Assembly: GCA_033816765.1 (NCBI GenBank)
Contig: CM066293.1
Span: forward strand, 2,542,001-2,606,000
Direction of reading: 5' to 3'
Length of the DNA stretch: 64,000 nt
DNA from: Nothopassalora personata
Taxonomy: Eukaryota > Ascomycota > Dothideomycetes > Mycosphaerellales > Mycosphaerellaceae
Position numbers and translations under genes: made by a program. Below are positions 4,503 to 56,734 of the stretch, piece by piece; positions within the stretch are counted from its first letter, which is position 1, and each line of letters opens with the position of its first letter. The notes below the pieces were generated by a model. That model was not told the DNA's origin. It saw only the letters and a list, made by a program, of their open reading frames with translations, and did not search any database.

Positions 4503-5331
4503 GTTTAATTAATTAATTAATTAATTATTCTATTTACGTACTTTACGAATCTAAGACTATATAATACGGGTCCTAAAAATAGGACTAAAATTTAAGAAAA
4601 GGAGAAAAGCTACGTCGTACCCCGAATATAAAAACTCCTTAAAAGCTCGTAAGCGAGGCTCGGTATTTGAGATAAAGGTTGAATATATTACGGCGTAGTA
4701 CGTCGCGTACCCGGTAGTTATATCTTATCCGTGTTTTACGAGTTATCTACTTACCCCGGGTAAGATAAGTTATACCTATTTTAAAAATTGCAACCGGTCG
4801 GGTCTTATTTCTTTAAGATTATAACCGTGTTTCTTTACCGCGCCGGGCGGTCCCGTTATATAAACGCTAAATTCGAGAATATAAGAGAGAGAGAGAGAGG
4901 CAGTATCTCTAATAGCCCGTCCCCTCCGTAGAAAGTCTTCGACCGTCTTCTTTATATCATCTCTTCGAGGTTTAGGTTACCTCGATAGATTCGTAGCGAG
5001 AATACCCGTTTTATACGGCCGTCGTTATCCGAAGAGTAAGTCCGCCGCGTTCTCTCTTCTTTTAAGTAGTTTCGAGGTCTTCGTTAATAGATATCCGGGC
5101 GCGTTCTCCCTTCTTCTCTCTTCTCTTCCTTTCTCCTTCGTCCGTATTCGAGGTATCCGTCCCGCCGTAGGCTCCAAAATAGGCGTCTTTCTTTAAGGAA
5201 GCTCGGTTATTTTTCGATAAAAGACGTCGCGTTTTAAGAGGGAGTTTTAAGAGGGAGAGTCTTAGTTTCTCTTCGCTATAACGAAGATACTTACGTTATC
5301 CGCCGCGTAAAGGCGCTCTCCGTAGGACGAC
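4503..5331 (-). mobile_element. SINE-like retroposon, copy A (RIP-mutated)
   Basis: This is homologous over its whole length to the intact copies at 13536-14296 and 18882-19642, but changed throughout by C-to-T and G-to-A. It is flanked by a 13-bp target duplication, ggaaagacgtagg, at 4490-4502 and 5332-5344. On the minus strand its 5' end is GTCGTCCTACGGAGAGCGCC, the same ribozyme-like start as the intact copies. Its 3' end is a tail of about six TTAA units, the mutated form of the (TCAA)n tail. At 829 bp it is longer than the others. Variable TSD length, no terminal inverted repeats and a simple-repeat tail point to target-primed reverse transcription. Confidence 0.8.
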
Positions 5332-7005: not shown

Positions 7006-7079
7006 GGCTAGGTAGCTTAGTAGTAGAGCGTAAGCTATCTATACTCTTAAGGTCGTAGGTTCGATTCATACCCTAGTCG
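7006..7079 (+). tRNA. tRNA-like sequence inside H0 (degenerate)
   Basis: It has a 7-bp acceptor stem GGCTAGG/CCTAGTC (one G-T wobble), a D-arm GCTT/GAGC, an A-box-like TAGCTTAGTAG and a B-box GGTTCGATTC within a T-arm. The anticodon arm does not form a normal 5-bp stem and 7-nt loop, so no anticodon is assigned. It sits between the end of the accessory ORF and the LTR1 insertion. RIP has probably damaged it. A decayed tRNA gene captured by the element, or a tRNA-derived module, are both possible. Confidence 0.55.
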
Positions 7080-8182: not shown

Positions 8183-8258
8183 GGTTAGGTGGCTTAAGGG
8201 TAGAGCGTTATTCCGCTATTCAGAAGGGAGGTTGTAGGTTCGATTCCTACCTTAGCTA
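8183..8258 (+). tRNA. tRNA-like sequence inside H1
   Basis: The best preserved of three. The acceptor is GGTTAGG/CTTAGCT (seven pairs with wobbles), the A box is TGGCTTAAGGG, and the T-arm GTAGG/CCTAC is perfect around the B box GGTTCGATTCC. A clear anticodon stem is not visible in the 26 nt between the D- and T-arms; an intron or mutation could explain this. Location is the same as in H0 and H3, just after the accessory ORF. Confidence 0.55.
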
Positions 8259-13535: not shown

Positions 13536-14296
13536 TTGATTGATTATTCCATTAACGTGCTATTTGAGTCAAAGACTATGCAACACGGGTCTCGAGAACG
13601 AGACCAAAATTTGAGAGAAGGAGAAAAGCCCCGTCGTACCCCGGACGTAAAAACTCCTTAAAAGATGCGAGCAACGCTCGCTATTCGAACCGTAAATCGA
13701 ATATATTGCGGCGTAGTACGCGCGTACCCGGTAGTCGTGTCTTGTCGAGAATTGCGGTTTGTCGCCTTGCCCCGGGCGAGACAAGTTTTGCGCCCGTGTC
13801 TCGTTCTTGTTTTAAAAAGCCAAGCCGGCCGTACCCGTACGCACCGAGCAAAATCCCAAGAAACACCCGTTGCCTCTGTTTCAATCCAGTCGCGTTCTCC
13901 GGTCTCGAGTGTAGCTCCTCGGTCGCAGTGGCCTCGCTGTCGTCCCCCCCTCGGCCTCTCTTGGTTCCAGCCGTGCAGTATACGTGGTTTGCGCCCCTAA
14001 ACGCCTCTCTTGGTTCCAGCCGGCAGTTTACGTGGTTTGCCGGGACGACAGGTAGACAGCGCCTTCGTTGTTCGAGCGACGTGTACGCTATGTACGTCGC
14101 TTTCCCTTCTCGCAGTTCCGGAGTTCTTGTTTGTAGATTTTGAGCGTATCTCGTTCGTTCGGTTCGTCCGACCTGTCTTTTCTTGTTTCGAGTCGAGTAG
14201 GCTTGTATTTTTCGAGAGAGAGAGTCTTAGTTTCTCTTCGTCGTAACGAAGATACTTACGTCGTCCGCCGCGTGAAGGCGCTCTCTATAGGACGAC
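13536..14296 (-). mobile_element. SINE-like retroposon, copy B (intact, not RIP-mutated)
   Basis: 761 bp with an 11-bp target duplication taacttagcgt (13525-13535 and 14297-14307) inside decayed H1 sequence. On the minus strand it starts at the ribozyme-like 5' end (14296) and ends with ...ATAATCAATCAA, a short (TCAA)n tail. Normal CpA/TpG content contrasts with the flanks. It is identical in length and, as far as I read it, in sequence to copy C in the opposite orientation. Small open frames on both strands have no recognisable domain, so it is probably non-coding and mobilised in trans by a LINE. Confidence 0.82.
14219..14296 (-). ncRNA. HDV-like self-cleaving ribozyme at the 5' end of copy B
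   Basis: Same sequence as 18882-18959; see that entry for the fold. The 5' end of the ribozyme coincides with the first base of the element after the target duplication. Confidence 0.68.
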
Positions 14297-15970: not shown

Positions 15971-18868
15971 CTAGGTATTTTCTAATTTGTCGTATCCTTT
16001 CTACTTAATAAGGTATCGCTAACCTTTTTTATCTAGGATTTTTTCGACTTCGAATTCGTTTTCTACTTCTAGCTCGAAATAGAAGCTTTCCTAGTAGGGT
16101 GTTTCGGCGTCTACGGGTTCTAACTTAGAGATATAGAAGACTAGGTAGATTTTAGCGTTAGGTAGTAGTCGTAGGCGGTAGTTAACTAGTCCTATAACTT
16201 TATCGATAGAAAATGGTCCGACCTTAACATAATCTAGTTTCTTAGTCTATCTTCTTATTCTTAAGTCTTTTATAAGGAGATAGACCTTATCCCCCTCTTT
16301 TAGTAGAGGTGCTATTTTTCTCGTATCTTACCGTTATTAAGATAGTTTATATTATATATCTTCGATCGCCTTACGTGTTTCTTAATACACTTCCTTAAGA
16401 GTATCCGTCGTCACGATCGCTCTTTTGGCTTATAGGTAGGATCTAGGTATTCCGAATAGGTTAGGATCTTTCCTAAAGTTTATATAAAATAGTGTCGTTA
16501 AAGTTGTCGTCGTTAAAGTTGTCGTTAAAGTTGTCTCTAATTTATAGTTATTTAGTACAATCTATGCTATTAGTAGTAATAGAACCTAGTTGTCTTGTGC
16601 GTAGTTAACGTAGTGCCGTATATATTGTTCTAGCGTCTAATTTATCCTCTCGGTCTATCCGTCTGTTTCTAGATAATATGCTATTAATAGCTTATGTTTA
16701 ATTCCGATGGTTCCTATAAGCGTTTTCTAGTAATTTGATGTAAATAGTTTATCTCTATCCGTTATAAACGCTTAAGGGAATCTATAGTATTAGATAAGTC
16801 TATCTAGTACGAGGTATCTGAGCTACTCTACATTATACGTCTCTAATGTAGGAATAAAGTGTACGTATTTCGTAAGTCTATTAACTATAACTAGTATTAT
16901 GTCGTATAGTTATTTCGTAACTTAATCTTTTAACGGTAGGAGTTTCGTAATAAAGTCTATTGTGACTTCGTCCTATAGTTTTATCGGTAGTGTCCTAAAC
17001 TGTAGGTAACCGTATTTTACATGTCTCGCAGCCTTGTTTCGTTAGTAGTATACGCATTGCTTAATGTAGCGTAGCACCTTTTATCTTATCTATAGGAATG
17101 AGAAGCTACGTTATATTAGGTCTATTGTCTTTAAAGTTCTAGGGTGTCTATAAGTTAGTCCGTCGTAATATTATCATATACATTCTTCTTCTCGATCTTT
17201 TAGTACTTAGTATTTTCCTTACGATATAGGGAATTGTTCGTCCTTATCGCCTAATATCCGTACGATGTTATTAAATTCTCTTATATTAGTACTAAGACTT
17301 CCGTCCGGGTTTATCTTTAGTATTTTATGTTATACTAGTTCTTTTCCTTCTATATAGTTGCTTCTTCGGCTTAGCGCGTCGGCGCGGCTATTCTCTCGTC
17401 CTAGAGTATATTTAATTTAAAACTTATACTATCCTAGTAGCTCTAACTAGCGGGCTTATCTTCGGGTAAGTTCCTTTATCGTTGTAAAGTACGTAAGATT
17501 CTTATAGTTAGAAAGAATTGTTAACTTTAGTAAGCCCTCGATATATACTCTCTAATGTTATATAGCGGTAATAATAGCTAGAAGCTCTTTATTATAGATA
17601 TCGTTGTTCTATTCCGCTATAGTTATTTTCCGGGAGTAATAGGCTACTAAGTGTCTTTTCCTATCGTGTATCTATATTAGATACGCGCGTATTGCTATAT
17701 TAGACGCGTTAGTCTCGATATAAACTTCCTTACTACTATTAAATAGTCGCAGCGTAGGGGCTAAAGCGTATTATTCTTTAAGTTTCTTAAATGCTTTAAT
17801 CTATTCTTTTCTCTATTTCTAGTTAACGTCTTTCCTCGTAAGTATTATTATTAGTACTACTGTCTTTACGTAGTCCTTAATAAATTTCCGGTTATAGTTT
17901 ACTAGTCTAAGAAATAACTATACGTCCTTAACTGTTTTTAGTTCTAGCTATCCTCTAATTAACTATGTTTTTATAGGATCGATCGTTATCCCCGCGGTAC
18001 TAATAATAAAACCTAAAAATTTAATTTCTTTCTTATAGAATTCGTATTTCTTAGGTGCCGTTTTAAATTATAATTACGTAAGTTGTTTAAAGACGTCCTA
18101 GACTTGTTTTATATGTTTCTATAGGGATCCTTTCGTATAGACTAGTATGTTGTCTATATAAGCGATAACGTATACGTCAAGTAGGTCTCTAAGTGTTTTG
18201 TTAATAAGGTCTTAGTAGGATACCGGTACGTTAGTTAATCCTATTAGTATAACTAAGAATTCGTAAAGTCCGTATCTTATCCTAAAGGCGGGTTTCTATT
18301 CTTCTCCTTCTACTATTTATATAGTATAGAAGGTATCTCGTAGGTTAATCTTCGTATACTAGTCTAATCCGGTTAATCTATCTTATACTTCTTCGATGTT
18401 AGGTAGCGGGTATCGGTTCTTAATCGTAATCTCGTTTAACTTCCTATAGTCTTATACAAGTCGTAAATTCCCGTTTGCTTTTAGAACGAACATGTATAGA
18501 GTTCCTACACTTAAGGTAGATCTTCTTATCTATCCTTTAGCTAGCTTCTCCTTTAGCTATTCTCGTAGGGTCTATAGCTCTTTCTTAGACATTTAATATA
18601 GGGGTCTCTATAGAGGCTCTTTCCCTAGCTAAATGTTTATCTTATAATCCTATAGTTAGTACTTAGGTAAGGCATCCTTACCTCTTTCCTCTTTAAAGAG
18701 TCGCGACTACTTACGATACTCCTTAGGAATACTTAACTCTAAGATATTAGTATCCTTCGATAGTACGTTACTTCTATTACTACTAGTAACTTCGTAACCC
18801 GGCGGCCCTACGCTAGTGTCTATCCCGGTCGAAGGTAGTTCTTCTATCCTTCTATTTAGCGTACGCTA
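15971..18868 (-). pseudogene. pol of chromovirus H0, part 1 (RIP-inactivated)
   Basis: Continues H0 from 7185 across the H1 insertion. The order is the same as in H1: chromodomain end at 15980-16080, integrase (16500-17200), reverse transcriptase with the Y-x-D-D motif region near 18140. It is more heavily mutated than H1, with frequent loss of Cys, Gln and Trp codons. It is interrupted at 18882 by retroposon copy C and resumes at 19656. Confidence 0.72.
16793..17243. repeat. 451-bp tract identical to H1 (10250-10700)
   Basis: Partner of the conversion tract described at 10250-10700. Divergence resumes at once on both sides (for example cccta versus cctta at the right end). Confidence 0.7.
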
Positions 18869-18881
18869 TATCCTATTTAGC

Positions 18882-18959
18882 GTCGTCCTATAGAGAGCGC
18901 CTTCACGCGGCGGACGACGTAAGTATCTTCGTTACGACGAAGAGAAACTAAGACTCTCT
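18882..18959 (+). ncRNA. HDV-like self-cleaving ribozyme at the 5' end of copy C
   Basis: Numbering from 18882, bases 1-7 GTCGTCC pair perfectly with 31-37 GGACGAC (P1, 7 bp). Bases 18-20 GCC pair with 28-30 GGC (P3, 3 bp) around a 7-nt L3, TTCACGC. Bases 11-16 AGAGAG pair with 73-78 CTCTCT (P2). Bases 46-51 CTTCGT pair with 56-61 ACGAAG around the tetraloop TACG (P4). The J4/2 strand carries ACTAAG with C67 in the place of the catalytic cytosine (C75 in genomic HDV). Strand order and the 1-7/31-37 spacing of P1 are those of the nested double pseudoknot. Predicted cleavage is immediately before base 1, which is the exact element boundary. Known analogues sit at the 5' ends of R2, Baggins/RTE and trypanosomatid L1Tc/NARTc elements. 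Confidence 0.72.
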
Positions 18960-19642
18960 CTCTCGAAAAATACAAGCCTACTCGACTCGAAACAAGAAAA
19001 GACAGGTCGGACGAACCGAACGAACGAGATACGCTCAAAATCTACAAACAAGAACTCCGGAACTGCGAGAAGGGAAAGCGACGTACATAGCGTACACGTC
19101 GCTCGAACAACGAAGGCGCTGTCTACCTGTCGTCCCGGCAAACCACGTAAACTGCCGGCTGGAACCAAGAGAGGCGTTTAGGGGCGCAAACCACGTATAC
19201 TGCACGGCTGGAACCAAGAGAGGCCGAGGGGGGGACGACAGCGAGGCCACTGCGACCGAGGAGCTACACTCGAGACCGGAGAACGCGACTGGATTGAAAC
19301 AGAGGCAACGGGTGTTTCTTGGGATTTTGCTCGGTGCGTACGGGTACGGCCGGCTTGGCTTTTTAAAACAAGAACGAGACACGGGCGCAAAACTTGTCTC
19401 GCCCGGGGCAAGGCGACAAACCGCAATTCTCGACAAGACACGACTACCGGGTACGCGCGTACTACGCCGCAATATATTCGATTTACGGTTCGAATAGCGA
19501 GCGTTGCTCGCATCTTTTAAGGAGTTTTTACGTCCGGGGTACGACGGGGCTTTTCTCCTTCTCTCAAATTTTGGTCTCGTTCTCGAGACCCGTGTTGCAT
19601 AGTCTTTGACTCAAATAGCACGTTAATGGAATAATCAATCAA
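18882..19642 (+). mobile_element. SINE-like retroposon, copy C (intact, not RIP-mutated)
   Basis: 761 bp with a 13-bp target duplication tatcctatttagc at 18869-18881 and 19643-19655. On plus it starts GTCGTCCTATAGAGAGCGCC and ends GGAATAATCAATCAA. It has no terminal inverted repeats, no LTR and no coding domain. TSDs of 11, 13 and 13 bp in the three copies, a simple-repeat tail and a fixed 5' start match non-LTR retroposition of full-length RNA. At 761 bp it is long for a SINE, and a non-autonomous LINE derivative is equally possible. It lies 4.6 kb from copy B in inverted orientation; the two TSDs differ, so these are separate insertions. Confidence 0.82.
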
Positions 19643-19655
19643 TATCCTATTTAGC

Positions 19656-21821
19656 TGTCTCTTTACCTTATCTACTAGCGAACGCTACTACTACGTAGGC
19701 TAAATGTCGATAACGCAATCGTATTCCCTAAATATAAGTACTCCTCTTCTATAGTAGATTACTAGATTATGCTTTTGTAACTAAGGTATACCTAGTACGA
19801 TGTTATAACTAGCTATATTAGTAACATCTAAGATAATCTCCTCGTAGTGCCGTTAGATAGTAAGTAGTAGCGGTATCGTCTTGCGCTCTATACTAGGTAA
19901 GGATAACCCGTCTACCGCGATTAATTTATAACCCTCTTTCTTCTTATAGGTAGCGATCCTATATCTTATAATAAATAATTTAGAGGTAAAGTTCCCGCTT
20001 ACTCCGGAATCTATTATAGCATCTATCTTATACCCGTTAACGATAATCTTAGTTCGAAATACTATTGTCGTTAGTAATACTTAAGCCTTTTCTATATTGT
20101 ATAACTCCCTTCGGTCGCTTATTCCTAGGGAGTTAATCCTTTTCCCTATTTATACGTAGAACGTTATACTTTGTATCTCGAGGCCTCCGCTTAAACCTAG
20201 CGCGGGCCTTTCTATATCCGTACCTATATTCGGTAACGTTCCTAGATCTTCTACGTTTCTAAGTAGAGTACGCGTGCGTGTTACACTACGTTACGTAATT
20301 TATTCGATATAAATGTTCCTTACGGTATAAGGTATCCGGTTCCTATTATTCGGCTCCCTATCGGCGGTCGTTCTATAATAGTAGTTACAAAATTCTCGGT
20401 TGTTTCTATAAGTAGGTATCCCTAGGCTATACCTTATAGGGTGTCGAGTATCTTATTAAACTTAATAGAGTATAGTATTCTTCGTCCGCCTATCTTAGGT
20501 AGGAATTCTTCGTGCCTTCTTTATAGGTATACGATTATATTATATAATTTCTTAGGTACATTAATCGTAAAGGTTAGTTGTTTATTATTATCGTTAGTGT
20601 CGCTCTCTTCTCCTTCGGAGGAATCTTCTTCGCTTAATTCTTCCGGATTCTAATCTTCCTCGATAGTATCTAGCCCGGTAGTTTCTTAACTTTCTTCCTA
20701 TAGTTCCGGTAACTACGATCCGTTCTATCCTAGGTCTTAGTTTTCTTTATCGCTTTTATTATCGTTAAAGTAGGATTCGTCGATATCTACTTCTCGGAGC
20801 GTAGCGTTTTGCCTATACGTTACTCCTAGGGTTCCTCTTAGTTACTAAGGCTAATACCCTACGCCTAATTTTGCGGCGTAGTAAACCTAACACGAGTCTT
20901 AGTAATAGAATCGCTAATAAAGGCTTCTATAACTATTTCGAGATTTAGATTCGATCTCGTAGTCGACTCTTCGTACTATTATATTAAACTGTTATAGTTA
21001 GTTCTTCGTATTAAATGAAATAACTACTATTTACTGCCTATAGTACCTTCCTCTTCCTTCTAAGGGGTCTAGGAGAGGCGTCGTGCTTCTATTACTAGCT
21101 CTCTCTCCTACTCTCCGAGTATAGTCGGTATCTCCTCGAGATCTAACGCTACTCTTAGGTTTACTAGTTCGGCGTCGTATTATATTAAACTGCTCGCGGC
21201 GTACTATATTCTTACCGCGGTAGTCCCTTACTAGGTAGCTAGGTTTACTATATCTATAGTAGGTTCGTGTTTCTTTCGAACTCCGGGATGCTCTATTCCC
21301 GTTACTATTCCTAATCTTATAACCTTTCTCGGTAACGTCGAGCTCTATTAGCTATAGTCCGTAGTACGGTTTGTCCCTAGGCTTATTATTATAGTTGTCG
21401 TAGAAGCCTCTATTACGATTGTCGTAGCCTAGTGTATATCTAGCCTTTCCGGATACCTTAGAGTCGTATCGTCGTTCCATAGCTCTTTCGTAGAGCTTAT
21501 CGTTAAGATTAATCGTAACTCTAACGAGGTCGCCTAAGCTATCGATCTTCCGACCGTCCCTTATTAACTCTTCCTTAATATGCTCCTTTAGTCCTCTTTA
21601 GTTTATAACTTAAAGTGCTTCGTTATCCTAATTAGTAAGTTACGTATATTCCTAGAATTTAGTAGCATATTCGGTAGTAGATATCTTCTAGGTTAAATAC
21701 TAAATAATACGAACGGTAGTAGTAATCTTATTAGAGACACTAAAGACACTCTTTATAGTATGCTTAAGATAGTTATATAACCTAAAGATTCCGTCGGCAT
21801 TGTCTTCTCCGTTACTATTAA
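19656..21821 (-). pseudogene. pol (N-terminal side) and gag of chromovirus H0 (RIP-inactivated)
   Basis: Resumes H0 after copy C. The protease/early pol region (19660-20880) parallels H1 and H3. It includes a plus-strand run tcgttagtgtcgctctcttctccttcgg that encodes an acidic Glu/Ser stretch on minus. Gag with a zinc-knuckle relic follows near 21180-21250. It is cut at 21822 by the LTR of element E2, and its 5' LTR is not seen in the window. Confidence 0.62.
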
Positions 21822-51730: not shown

Positions 51731-51947
51731 CTAAGGTAGTATTAGTATATTATAGTATATAGTAATAACTGGACTTAACTTACTACCGAGTACGTCTATA
51801 GACTACTACTTACTATTAACTTAAGGCTCGCGGGTTAGAGGGTTGTAGCTACTAGGTAAGAACACCTAAGGGAGCCGGGGGTTATCGGTAATATCGGTAG
51901 CTAGGCGCTACGTAAGGGTTATACTACCTTATAGCTACTACTACTAG

Positions 51948-52282
<335 letters not shown>

Positions 52283-55231
52283 TTAGGTAAGGAGGAGGGC
52301 GGTACGACGGGCGCGCTACCGAGTAGAGAGACTATAATTATATTAGTACGCTTATTACATTATAAAGTAATATATCTTAACTTACGGAGGAGGGAGTACG
52401 CGAGGAGTAGAAGTAGGCCTTTAATAATGTTAGCTAATAGATATCGGACATAAGATATGTTACGACTAACCGGCTAGCGGCGCTACTACTATACTAGTAT
52501 AACGACTACGGGGACTAAGTAGAAAGAAGGCGGGTATCTTAGCGGTAGAGTTAATAATTGACTTATATAGCTTACGGGTTAGGATTAAGGCGTTAAAGGA
52601 GGCGGAGTCGTAGATCGCTTACGGATTAGAAGTAATATAAGTTAAGTAAAAGGATATAAGTTAAGTAAAAGAAAAGAGGAAGTAAAAGAAAAAGAGGCGC
52701 GAAGATATACCTTAACCTTATAATAGCGAGAAGTATACTATTATCGATAGGAAAGCGCGGGTAATATAAAGCCTTCTTTTGGGAGTCCTATACTCTAGTT
52801 AGGTACCGTAGAGTAAAGGCATCTCTCTTATAATAGTATAGAGATGTATTATAAGAACACGCGCGCTCTTATTAGCTAAATAGTACTAAATCGATATAAA
52901 GCGTACGGCTAGACCCTAGATTTTACGCTAAACTTTATATACGTATATAAAGTAATAATACAATCCGCGCTATTATAGACTTAGCGCGCGTTCTTATTAG
53001 CTAAACGGTACTAAATCGTATTAAAGGATAATAAATCCTTATAATATTATCTATTAAGGAGGAAGGTATAATAGTAGCTACCCGCTACCTACGCGAGCTT
53101 CCTAAATCGTAAGTAGGCTTCCCTACTATAGCCTTAGGCTCCTTATATACGTTCTATTTAACCGACTAGCTATTCTATTATATAGAGCGTAAAGTTCGTA
53201 CTTTTCCTCTTCTAGTAATCCTTCTTCCCGGGCGGGTACCGTATCTTCCTAGATACGTAACCTATCTACCGCCGAGCTAATTATAGACACTAGAAACTTC
53301 GACCTAAGTATAGCTAGCTAGGTAACCGTCCGCTCTAACGATATATCCTAGTAGGGCCGTATTTAATAACGCCTATTTAGAGACTATTAACTTCGCCGAC
53401 TACCTTCTACGTAAGATACCTAAATTGTGCTCTAAGATAGGTTAGGCTATTAAGATCGGCCTTAATACCTACTAGGCGTTAAGAAGTATAGGCTTATCCG
53501 TAAGGTATAGGAGTTAAAGGCAGTTTAGAATACTATTAATAATATCTATATCTATAATACTAAGCTTAATATATACCGTTTATTTAAGGACCTAGGCTAC
53601 TATATCCGTAATTACTTTACGATAATACTACTAGCCCGACGATAACTTTACTAATATATAGCTACGTCCGTAAAGACCTTCGAGAAGATACTACTACCCC
53701 GTTAACAACTTTAACTAATATACTACTATCCTATAAGAAGTTTTAATAACATAGCTTTACTCTAACACGAGTCGCGTAACTACCGTACTTAGTAGGGCTT
53801 AGGCCTACACTGATAGTAATAAAGCTAGTCGTCGTAGTTAGTATACTATTCTTAAACGATAAAAATAGTATATTATTATCTACTATATTCCGTACTACTT
53901 TCTTATCCGGTAGGATATCTTTCGAAGGTAGCGTAGGTAGGATCTAGTTATAGCCGTCTATTACATTCCGTACTACTTTCTCGTCCGGTAGGGTGTCTTT
54001 TAAAGGTAGCGTAGGTAGGATCTAGTTATAGTCGTCTATTATTATTAGGGAGCGTCTAAGATATAGTTAATAATAGTATAGTATATACTATTATCGATAC
54101 TTTACCTTATATAAGGGCGCTTTAATAATACTAGCCCAATAATACTACCTACCTAATTAATAGTTATTAGCGCCTTTAGTAAGGCGATATTATTAGCTAA
54201 ACCGTACCGGCCGATACTAAAGCGACTATAAGCAAATATAAGCGAGCGACGAGGCTACGCAATAATGTAATATCGTACGGGGTAGAGGATATATTGTCGA
54301 AGATAGCGGGCCGAGCGGTATATACTAAGCAATATTATTAGCTAAACTATATTAAACGGAGCTAAAGCAAATAAGCGAGTATAAGCAAGAGAGGTAGCAT
54401 TATATCGATAAGGTTACCCTTAATATCGTAAGGCTACGTAACGATGTAATATCTTATAGGAGAGAGGATATCGTTATAGATATCGGGCCGAGCGGATTTA
54501 CCCGAGCGCTCTTATTAGCTAAACCGTACTAATCTATGTTATAAAGGGTTCTAGACGGTGTAAATAGGGTATATAAGCTAGCGCCGGATAAACCTGACAC
54601 GACTATAGTATATAAAACGTATATAACATTACTATTTATCTTAACTATTAATACTAGATAGGGTATTAGTATACTAGTTACTCCTCCGCGTCCTCTACGA
54701 TAGTATTTGCTTCTAACCGGATCTAGATACTACTATCTATAATATCTACACATTATTTAGTTTATCCTCTTTAACAACTACTCCGGTATTTATATTACGC
54801 TCTATAAGCGGCTTTTAGCGCTTTCCTTTTGTTTAACTTAGTGTTTTCTTCCTAGGTATACGAGCTATATCGACCTTACGCTTTAGTACACTAGATAACC
54901 GCCGACTTAGTATCGTAATAGCGGTAGTAGCTACGGGCAATAAGTTTAGTATATTAAGTAGCTATGTATTATCGATCGTCCCGTCCTATAATTATAATTC
55001 TAGTAGTATACTCTATAACTCTAGTACTATAACCTAAGAGTATAGAACTATAACCTAAGAGTCTAGTACTAAGACCTACGAATCTAATACTATAATAGTA
55101 GGAGATGTTAATCTATCTACCTCGGGTACTATATTAGTAGGTACTTATAATACCTAGAGCTCGGTCTCGTCTAGTATAAAAGGATCTAGTATACTACTAT
55201 TACTAAACATAGTGACCTTCGGCGTAGTAAT
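52283..55231. repeat. RIP-mutated unclassified sequence with a recurring motif
   Basis: Decayed throughout. A motif ttattagctaaaccgtac, followed within about 20 bp by taaag, occurs five times (about 52868, 52996, 54190, 54333, 54509), often preceded by gcgc. A second local duplication (tccgtactactttcttatccgg) sits at 53888 and 53968. No coding domain was recognised. Confidence 0.5.
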
Positions 55232-56660: not shown

Positions 56661-56734
56661 GGCTAGGTAGCTTAGTAGTAGAGCGTAAGCTATCTACACT
56701 CTTAAGGTCGTAGGTTCAATTCCCACCTTAGCTA
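56661..56734 (+). tRNA. tRNA-like sequence inside H3
   Basis: Acceptor GGCTAGG/CTTAGCT (seven pairs including wobbles), D-arm GCTT/GAGC, and T-arm GTAGG/CCCAC with one mismatch that a RIP change explains. The B box is GGTTCAATTCC. The anticodon arm is irregular, as in the H0 copy. Confidence 0.55.

Follow-up and report, generated by a model that had tools for sequence, protein, structure and literature searches.

We report a 760-nt non-coding retroposon that begins with a 78-nt motif of the HDV-like ribozyme type. It lies in the 64,000-nt stretch of DNA analysed here (the window), in contig C7 of a genome of which we searched 54.5 Mb in 40 contigs. The RPB2 of the host is 94% identical to that of Fulvia fulva and 92% to that of Dothistroma septosporum, which places this fungus close to Fulvia fulva and Dothistroma. 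Our preferred reading, to which we give a probability of about 0.8, is that this is a non-autonomous SINE-like retroposon headed by a fungal-type HDV-like ribozyme, whose RNA would be cut out by that ribozyme and inserted by a LINE. Coordinates are given in Table 1.

Table 1. Features of the retroposon, its ribozyme-like head and its further copies in the window.
Feature	Position	Strand	Basis or remark
5′ target site duplication ATATCCTATTTAGC	18868..18881	+	sequence
SINE-like retroposon, 760 nt, young subfamily	18882..19641	+	sequence, copy comparison
3′ target site duplication, same ATATCCTATTTAGC	19642..19655	+	sequence
HDV-like ribozyme, nt 1-78	18882..18959	+	predicted cut between 18881 and 18882
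P1 5′ strand	18882..18888	+	pairs with 18912-18918; sequence and pairing across copies
P2 5′ strand	18892..18897	+	pairs with 18954-18959; sequence and pairing across copies
Extra C (C17) between P2 and P3	18898..18898	+	fungal-variant trait (PMC5640933)
P3 18899-18901/18909-18911 and L3 UUCACGC 18902-18908	18899..18911	+	sequence
Loop E-like AGUA 18922-18925 / GAA 18944-18946 enclosing P4	18922..18946	+	sequence
C67 in AAACUAAGA, predicted catalytic cytosine	18948..18948	+	C in 36/39 aligned heads
Two adjacent 3′ hairpins (19573-19590, 19591-19622)	19573..19622	+	predicted LINE reverse-transcriptase recognition structure
LINE-shared 3′ end, 56 nt, 94.6% identical, AATC-repeat tail included	19588..19643	+	
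Second young copy, identical over 761 nt	13537..14296	-	ribozyme 14219-14296; target duplication AACGCTAAGTTA
Old CpG-decayed copy, other subfamily	4503..5331	-	ribozyme 5254-5331

The element and its copies

The element is flanked by 14-nt target duplications and is 99.6-100% identical to copies at eight other loci (L002-L008, L010). The old copy in the window is bounded by the duplication CCTACGTCTTTCC, read by eye. It can be aligned with the young copy only at the head (82 nt, 89% identical) and in the 3′ part (207 nt, 79% identical), the bodies being unalike. Genome-wide, a 31-nt core of the ribozyme is present in 290 exact copies, against none for a reversed-pattern control. The sole ATG-started frame in the element that reaches 51 aa runs on the minus strand and is 111 aa long.

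No pol III box A or box B is in place in the element; matches with two mismatches each lie at nt 340 and 606, far from the start. Moreover, tRNA, 5S and SRP RNA are absent from the seven Rfam matches listed for 18800-19720 at E values up to 10. Since the element lacks a pol III-promoter head (tRNA, 7SL or 5S), we call it 'SINE-like'. It has the features of a SINE in being short and non-coding, in its target duplications and 5′-truncated copies, and in having its 3′ end in common with a LINE. These features, together with a head common to subfamilies, agree with the sequence-only reading, a model's earlier note on this DNA, which had called the element a non-coding retroposon.

Elsewhere in the window, Rfam gives tRNA-like matches at 7006-7079, 8183-8258 and 56661-56734, two of which lie just before copies of one dispersed repeat; ARAGORN with bacterial settings gives none. 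A head-to-tail array of a 9-bp unit occupies 51860-52300.

Architecture and conservation of the head

In ribozyme numbering, nt n corresponds to window position 18881+n. P1 (nt 1-7/31-37) forms seven Watson-Crick pairs in the young copy, with G1-C37 as the pair at the predicted cut site, and the P2 pseudoknot (nt 11-16/73-78) forms six pairs, with A72 bulged beside it. P3 (nt 18-20/28-30) is nested and has three pairs, and its loop aligns with the Rfam F. prausnitzii HDV model. P1.1 has only one possible pair, between nt 23 and G38, which is C-G in the young copy and U-G in most others; the second P1.1 position is U22/U39. C17 is C in 37 of the 39 aligned heads. P4 (nt 45-51/56-62; 18926-18932/18937-18943) is capped by a UACG loop, and the AGUA (nt 41-44) and GAA (nt 63-65) enclosing it, letters that we presume to be those of a loop E motif, are near-invariant across the 39 aligned copies. 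HDV-like ribozymes have their catalytic C in J4/2, with the consensus CNRA, and J4/2 in the candidate reads C67 U A A.

At the level of sequence, the motif is thus HDV-like as the sequence-only reading had proposed, with helices and key bases in the right order; the coordinates, the helices listed, L3, the P4 loop and C67 all hold. Its further statement that the spacing equals that of HDV has to be amended, given the extra C17 between P2 and P3 and the loop E-like motif adjoining P4. Variant HDV ribozymes have been described from 26 fungal species, 230 in all, and their gene associations are called 'widely variable' (Li & Breaker 2017, PMC5640933). To go by the accessible text of that paper, P2 and P3 are separated in them by an additional nucleotide, which is mostly C, loop E replaces part of P4, and the pair at the cut site is typically C-G. 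For two of these variants, which have the extra C and the loop E, in vitro cleavage at the base of P1 was shown (PMC5640933).

The sequence-only reading had suggested a search with a generic HDV-like descriptor and with the Rfam HDV models. Both descriptor matches in the 64-kb window are this element, in its two young copies; the pairing descriptor had been fitted to the candidate and is hence post hoc. It gave one match in 15 Markov-simulated windows and another in viral loci totalling 324,293 bases (40 of the 80 listed). There was no match in 237,738 bases from 45 other loci of the same genome, a control set that is partly redundant, many of its loci being copies of the same LTR families. 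Rfam did not endorse the motif: no HDV model reached its gathering threshold in the window, where the best score was 19.9 bits for RF02682 against a gathering value of 44 (E 0.41). Among 12 further ribozyme loci three had an Rfam HDV match, all below gathering and the best at 24.0 bits, and the alignments displayed misplace the catalytic part. Gathering is a criterion of the library and not a biochemical one, and two traits of the fungal variants conflict with the criteria of earlier searches (PMC5640933). A 22-base ribozyme motif had no match in viral_contigs or genome_contigs, neither of which is a fungal genome collection. A 16-base pattern was discarded as too short, the matches listed for it being taken for chance.

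It is very improbable, in our view, that the motif is a chance resemblance multiplied by the spread of the element. Such an origin would be in keeping with the post hoc descriptor and with the lack of an Rfam call; moreover, the heads all descend from one ancestor sequence, so that copy number alone proves nothing. It sits badly with the descriptor counts in the same genome and in simulated windows, and with a motif that begins exactly at an independently fixed element end. It also leaves aside that the motif shares two traits with fungal HDV ribozymes published as active, neither trait having been named in the sequence-only reading, and that the head is kept while bodies change.

Divergent heads were used to follow the pairing across relatives. 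We had 41 heads, two from the window and 39 fetched by head similarity, of which 39 were aligned, leaving out the duplicate L077 and L107, which has a 4-nt insertion. Over the 38 distinct heads the pairs are standard in 88.7% of cells, against 87.9% in shuffles (7/500 reach the observed value) and 37.9-57.8% when slid; the paired cells amount to 88.7% for P1, 94.3% for P2 and 94.7% for P3. Changes on both sides of a pair occupy 18 cells against 12.0 in shuffles (8/500 reach this). The covariation score is reached by 7/500 shuffles, the count of both-side pairs by 77/500 and the number of pair types by 130/500. P4 lacks pair 45-62 in 23 of the 38 heads, and 13 lack pair 49-58. C-to-T and G-to-A substitutions make up much of the variation, and 111 of 251 changes fall in CpG of the majority sequence. 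The covariation for which the sequence-only reading had proposed to search relatives is therefore present, and it is modest and confounded by CpG decay. As CpG decay is behind many of the changes, we gave covariation little weight as proof. Two double changes go beyond what CpG decay alone would produce: G-C to A-U at 11-78, where the C78 side is outside CpG, and U-A to C-G at 51-56, which runs opposite to the direction of decay.

The strict pairing descriptor is passed by 7 of the 39 divergent heads, one of them of the young type; this low rate is expected of decayed copies, yet it is no proof of selection. In the roughly 110 nt fetched for other copies, several unlike sequences follow the head. 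Judged by these comparisons, the head is retained across subfamilies with differing bodies.

The 5′ end and the partner LINE

Nucleotide 1 of the ribozyme is the first base of the element, because the target duplication ATATCCTATTTAGC fixes it independently. We looked at the duplications of 30 young copies, picked for ribozyme presence in two batches (10 and 20). The duplication abuts nt 1 in 23 of the 30, as the sequence-only reading would have it in placing the motif at the exact 5′ end. It lies one base earlier in two, L142 and L126, the latter having, in addition, C at nt 1. The script found no duplication in the remaining five (L002, L007, L008, L134 and L164), whose starts are therefore not independently fixed. 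Moreover, all 41 heads share one first base, at which flank similarity ends save in loci with a duplication-shared flank.

Two pairs among the 23 exact copies share a site. L005/L006 (G000:C9:27339-31815) and L138/L140 (G000:C1:1137294 / C1:1171259) are pairs of oppositely oriented copies whose flanks and target duplications are identical, and these are therefore inverted segmental duplications rather than separate insertions. Seven divergent heads (L086, L087, L096, L097, L099, L110 and L112) have one upstream flank in common and are probably one insertion spread within a larger repeat. At L008 (G000:C6, near 1779455) the first 15 nt of the ribozyme stand twice in tandem inside the target duplication, read by eye. 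An end-to-end template jump is a possible cause: a reverse transcriptase that runs off an RNA ending at nt 1 and jumps to another should leave this pattern.

An exact 5′ end could also be set by transcription start, from a promoter, internal or downstream, within the first ~80 nt, with the HDV-like fold a by-product or an inactive relic. Pr77 of trypanosomatids combines promoter and HDV-like ribozyme in 77 nt, to go by the passages cited here (PMC8190864, PMC4748587, PMC4035085), so that a promoter role is conceivable, and minimum free energy folding without pseudoknots is by itself unremarkable (z -0.74). We nevertheless consider this account quite unlikely. The box A and box B matches have the mismatches and positions given above, and the box B-like site is not preserved in the old copy (by eye). 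The promoter would also leave a whole ribozyme unexplained, with its L3, loop E, extra C and CUAAG, as well as the absence of the motif from the 237,738 bases of other loci.

The same genome contains a LINE whose two frames, of 412 and 1076 aa, carry endonuclease and reverse transcriptase domains; it may provisionally be called Tad-like. Its protein had no match in viral_contigs, which is not a fungal genome collection. Beyond the shared terminal sequence, a two-hairpin 3′ shape is common to the young element, its old relative and the LINE (z -3.6, -2.9 and -2.0, respectively), and the sequence of the first hairpin differs among the three. Exact 3′ ends of the element type number 304 in the genome and those of the LINE type 14. 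On contigs C1-C4, covered in full by the lists of cores and of 3′ ends, a ribozyme core lies ~700 nt upstream of 69 of the 79 exact element 3′ ends, and 3 of 72 cores are without an exact 3′ end. In each of eleven core-less copies (10 from C1-C4, one from C5) the alignment to the element begins only further in, at scattered points between nt 223 and 688. Such scattered starts identify 5′-truncated copies, the signature of target-primed reverse transcription, and together with the shared 3′ end they indicate that LINE machinery copies the element. Insertion by the LINE is, on these sequence grounds, well supported. Gypsy LTR elements were dismissed as the partner: 12 representative loci of ~10 kb, drawn from a first reverse transcriptase search in which 150 of 1916 candidates were scored, are LTR-like and have no end in common with the element.

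The 5′ end of the LINE is another matter. A LINE core of its own was seen there in 8 of 10 further copies probed at both ends, nine copies including L053, and not at the 5′ ends of L060 and L068. The ribozyme descriptor had no match in L053 or in a second LINE, L125, of which 3.2 kb upstream of the endonuclease was examined. As a source of the ribozyme the LINE was rejected: its core GCGGCGGAC and a downstream ACTAAGA are suggestive, but the similarity to the ribozyme is at background (262 of 2000 random pieces score equally high), and Rfam finds no HDV match in L053:250-560.

These results bear on whether the element is an internally deleted LINE, that is, a SIDE of the kind of R2 SIDE or NARTc, with its ribozyme from the LINE 5′ end. 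This has precedent in R2 and trypanosomatid elements, as far as the accessible text of PMC3414825 and PMC4035085 goes. The 3′ end of the element is LINE-derived, and an older or lost ribozyme-bearing LINE is a possible source. However, the match to the LINE is confined to the last 56 nt, and the 5′ head in common with a partner LINE that defines SIDEs and NARTc was not seen at the nine 5′ ends of one family, which carry another core, or in L125. Since no ribozyme was detected in the LINE copies examined, the element cannot be explained as just a deleted form of this LINE. We regard a SIDE origin as unlikely; it concerns origin and is compatible with the mechanism that we propose.

LINE copies (L053:275-372 and L054-L072) carry unrelated, copy-specific leaders between the target duplication and the LINE core. 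In five of them (L053, L056, L058, L064 and L066) the leader lies inside the target duplication, as read by eye. A 30-nt patch of one leader has at least 39 further occurrences in the genome (40 of 75 candidates scored). This recurrence points to template jumping at the 5′ end of the RNA, which fits better than 5′ transduction of flanks by the LINE, an explanation that we set aside. Among the 30 ribozyme-headed copies one (L008) has something similar. From the copy-specific leaders it follows that these LINE copies have ragged 5′ ends, whereas most element 5′ ends are exact.

We therefore return to a ribozyme-headed element, for which the structure and the exact ends suggest the following course. 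A copy would be transcribed within a longer RNA begun upstream. The ribozyme would fold during synthesis and cut before nt 1, leaving an RNA that starts at G1 with a 5′-OH; a start at nt 1 is evident in the DNA from the target duplications. The LINE reverse transcriptase may then recognise the two 3′ hairpins and the AATC tail, the end that element and LINE are seen to have in common. Target-primed reverse transcription would insert the copy with duplications of 10-14 nt, and early stops would yield 5′-truncated copies, both products being found in the genome. The ribozyme would thus substitute for the usual pol III head, and complete copies would acquire a uniform 5′ end without a promoter at that end.

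Comparison with known systems

More broadly, ribozyme-headed SINEs might form an ascomycete class of their own, in which an HDV-like ribozyme that comes from no living partner LINE stands as the head where a pol III promoter would be, and the 230 fungal variants might largely be such heads. We put this forward tentatively, at slightly less than even odds. If true, variants that serve as element heads would explain the scattered positions of the 230 fungal HDV ribozymes, and a likely biological role would be offered for these orphans. It would also provide a route to a fixed 5′ end for a SINE-like element without a start site of its own, in a system that is testable, with one ribozyme, one LINE, hundreds of copies and datable decay. 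Should many fungal genomes agree, the classification of SINEs by pol III heads would need a ribozyme-headed class, and transcripts reading through such insertions would be cut there.

The sequence-only reading knew of no such fungal family. Variant HDV ribozymes were already in print from fungi (PMC5640933), and they are not tied there to retroposons: transposon, retrotransposon and transposable element have no occurrence in the main text. Likewise known, to go by the cited passages, are 5′ HDV-like ribozymes on short retroposons of trypanosomatids and Drosophila (PMC4035085, PMC3414825). A fungal SINE-like family whose head is a variant ribozyme absent from its partner LINE was not found in the open-licence literature, outside which most subscription journals lie. 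What appears to be new is the joining of the two.

Compared by description only, the candidate and the fungal variants have the same architecture. Of the three traits, the candidate has the extra C and the loop E; the third is not clearly present, the cut-site pair being typically C-G in the variants, as the accessible text describes them (PMC5640933), and G1-C37 in the candidate. AfuSINEs of Aspergillus fumigatus are likewise short, interspersed and flanked by target duplications, and their host too is an ascomycete. They are described, in the text available, as tRNA- or 5S-related (PMC5063351), whereas the present element is ribozyme-headed and has no pol III boxes in place. NARTc/SIDER elements of trypanosomatids, with Pr77, are likewise retroposons that are short and non-autonomous, and their first ~77 nt are an HDV-like ribozyme. 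According to the part of the source drawn on here, they have that ribozyme in common with a parent LINE (L1Tc/ingi; PMC4035085), whereas the fungal partner LINE copies examined show none, and the host kingdom differs. The R2 SIDEs and the R2/R1 hybrid SIDE of Drosophila likewise combine a 5′ ribozyme with a LINE 3′ end (PMC3414825). These SIDEs occupy specific rRNA gene sites and are called rare in the passages cited (PMC3414825), whereas the fungal element is dispersed in hundreds of copies and has a long body of its own. The closest logical match is the R2/R1 hybrid SIDE, in which, as that source describes it, the ribozyme of one element stands on the 3′ end of another (PMC3414825).
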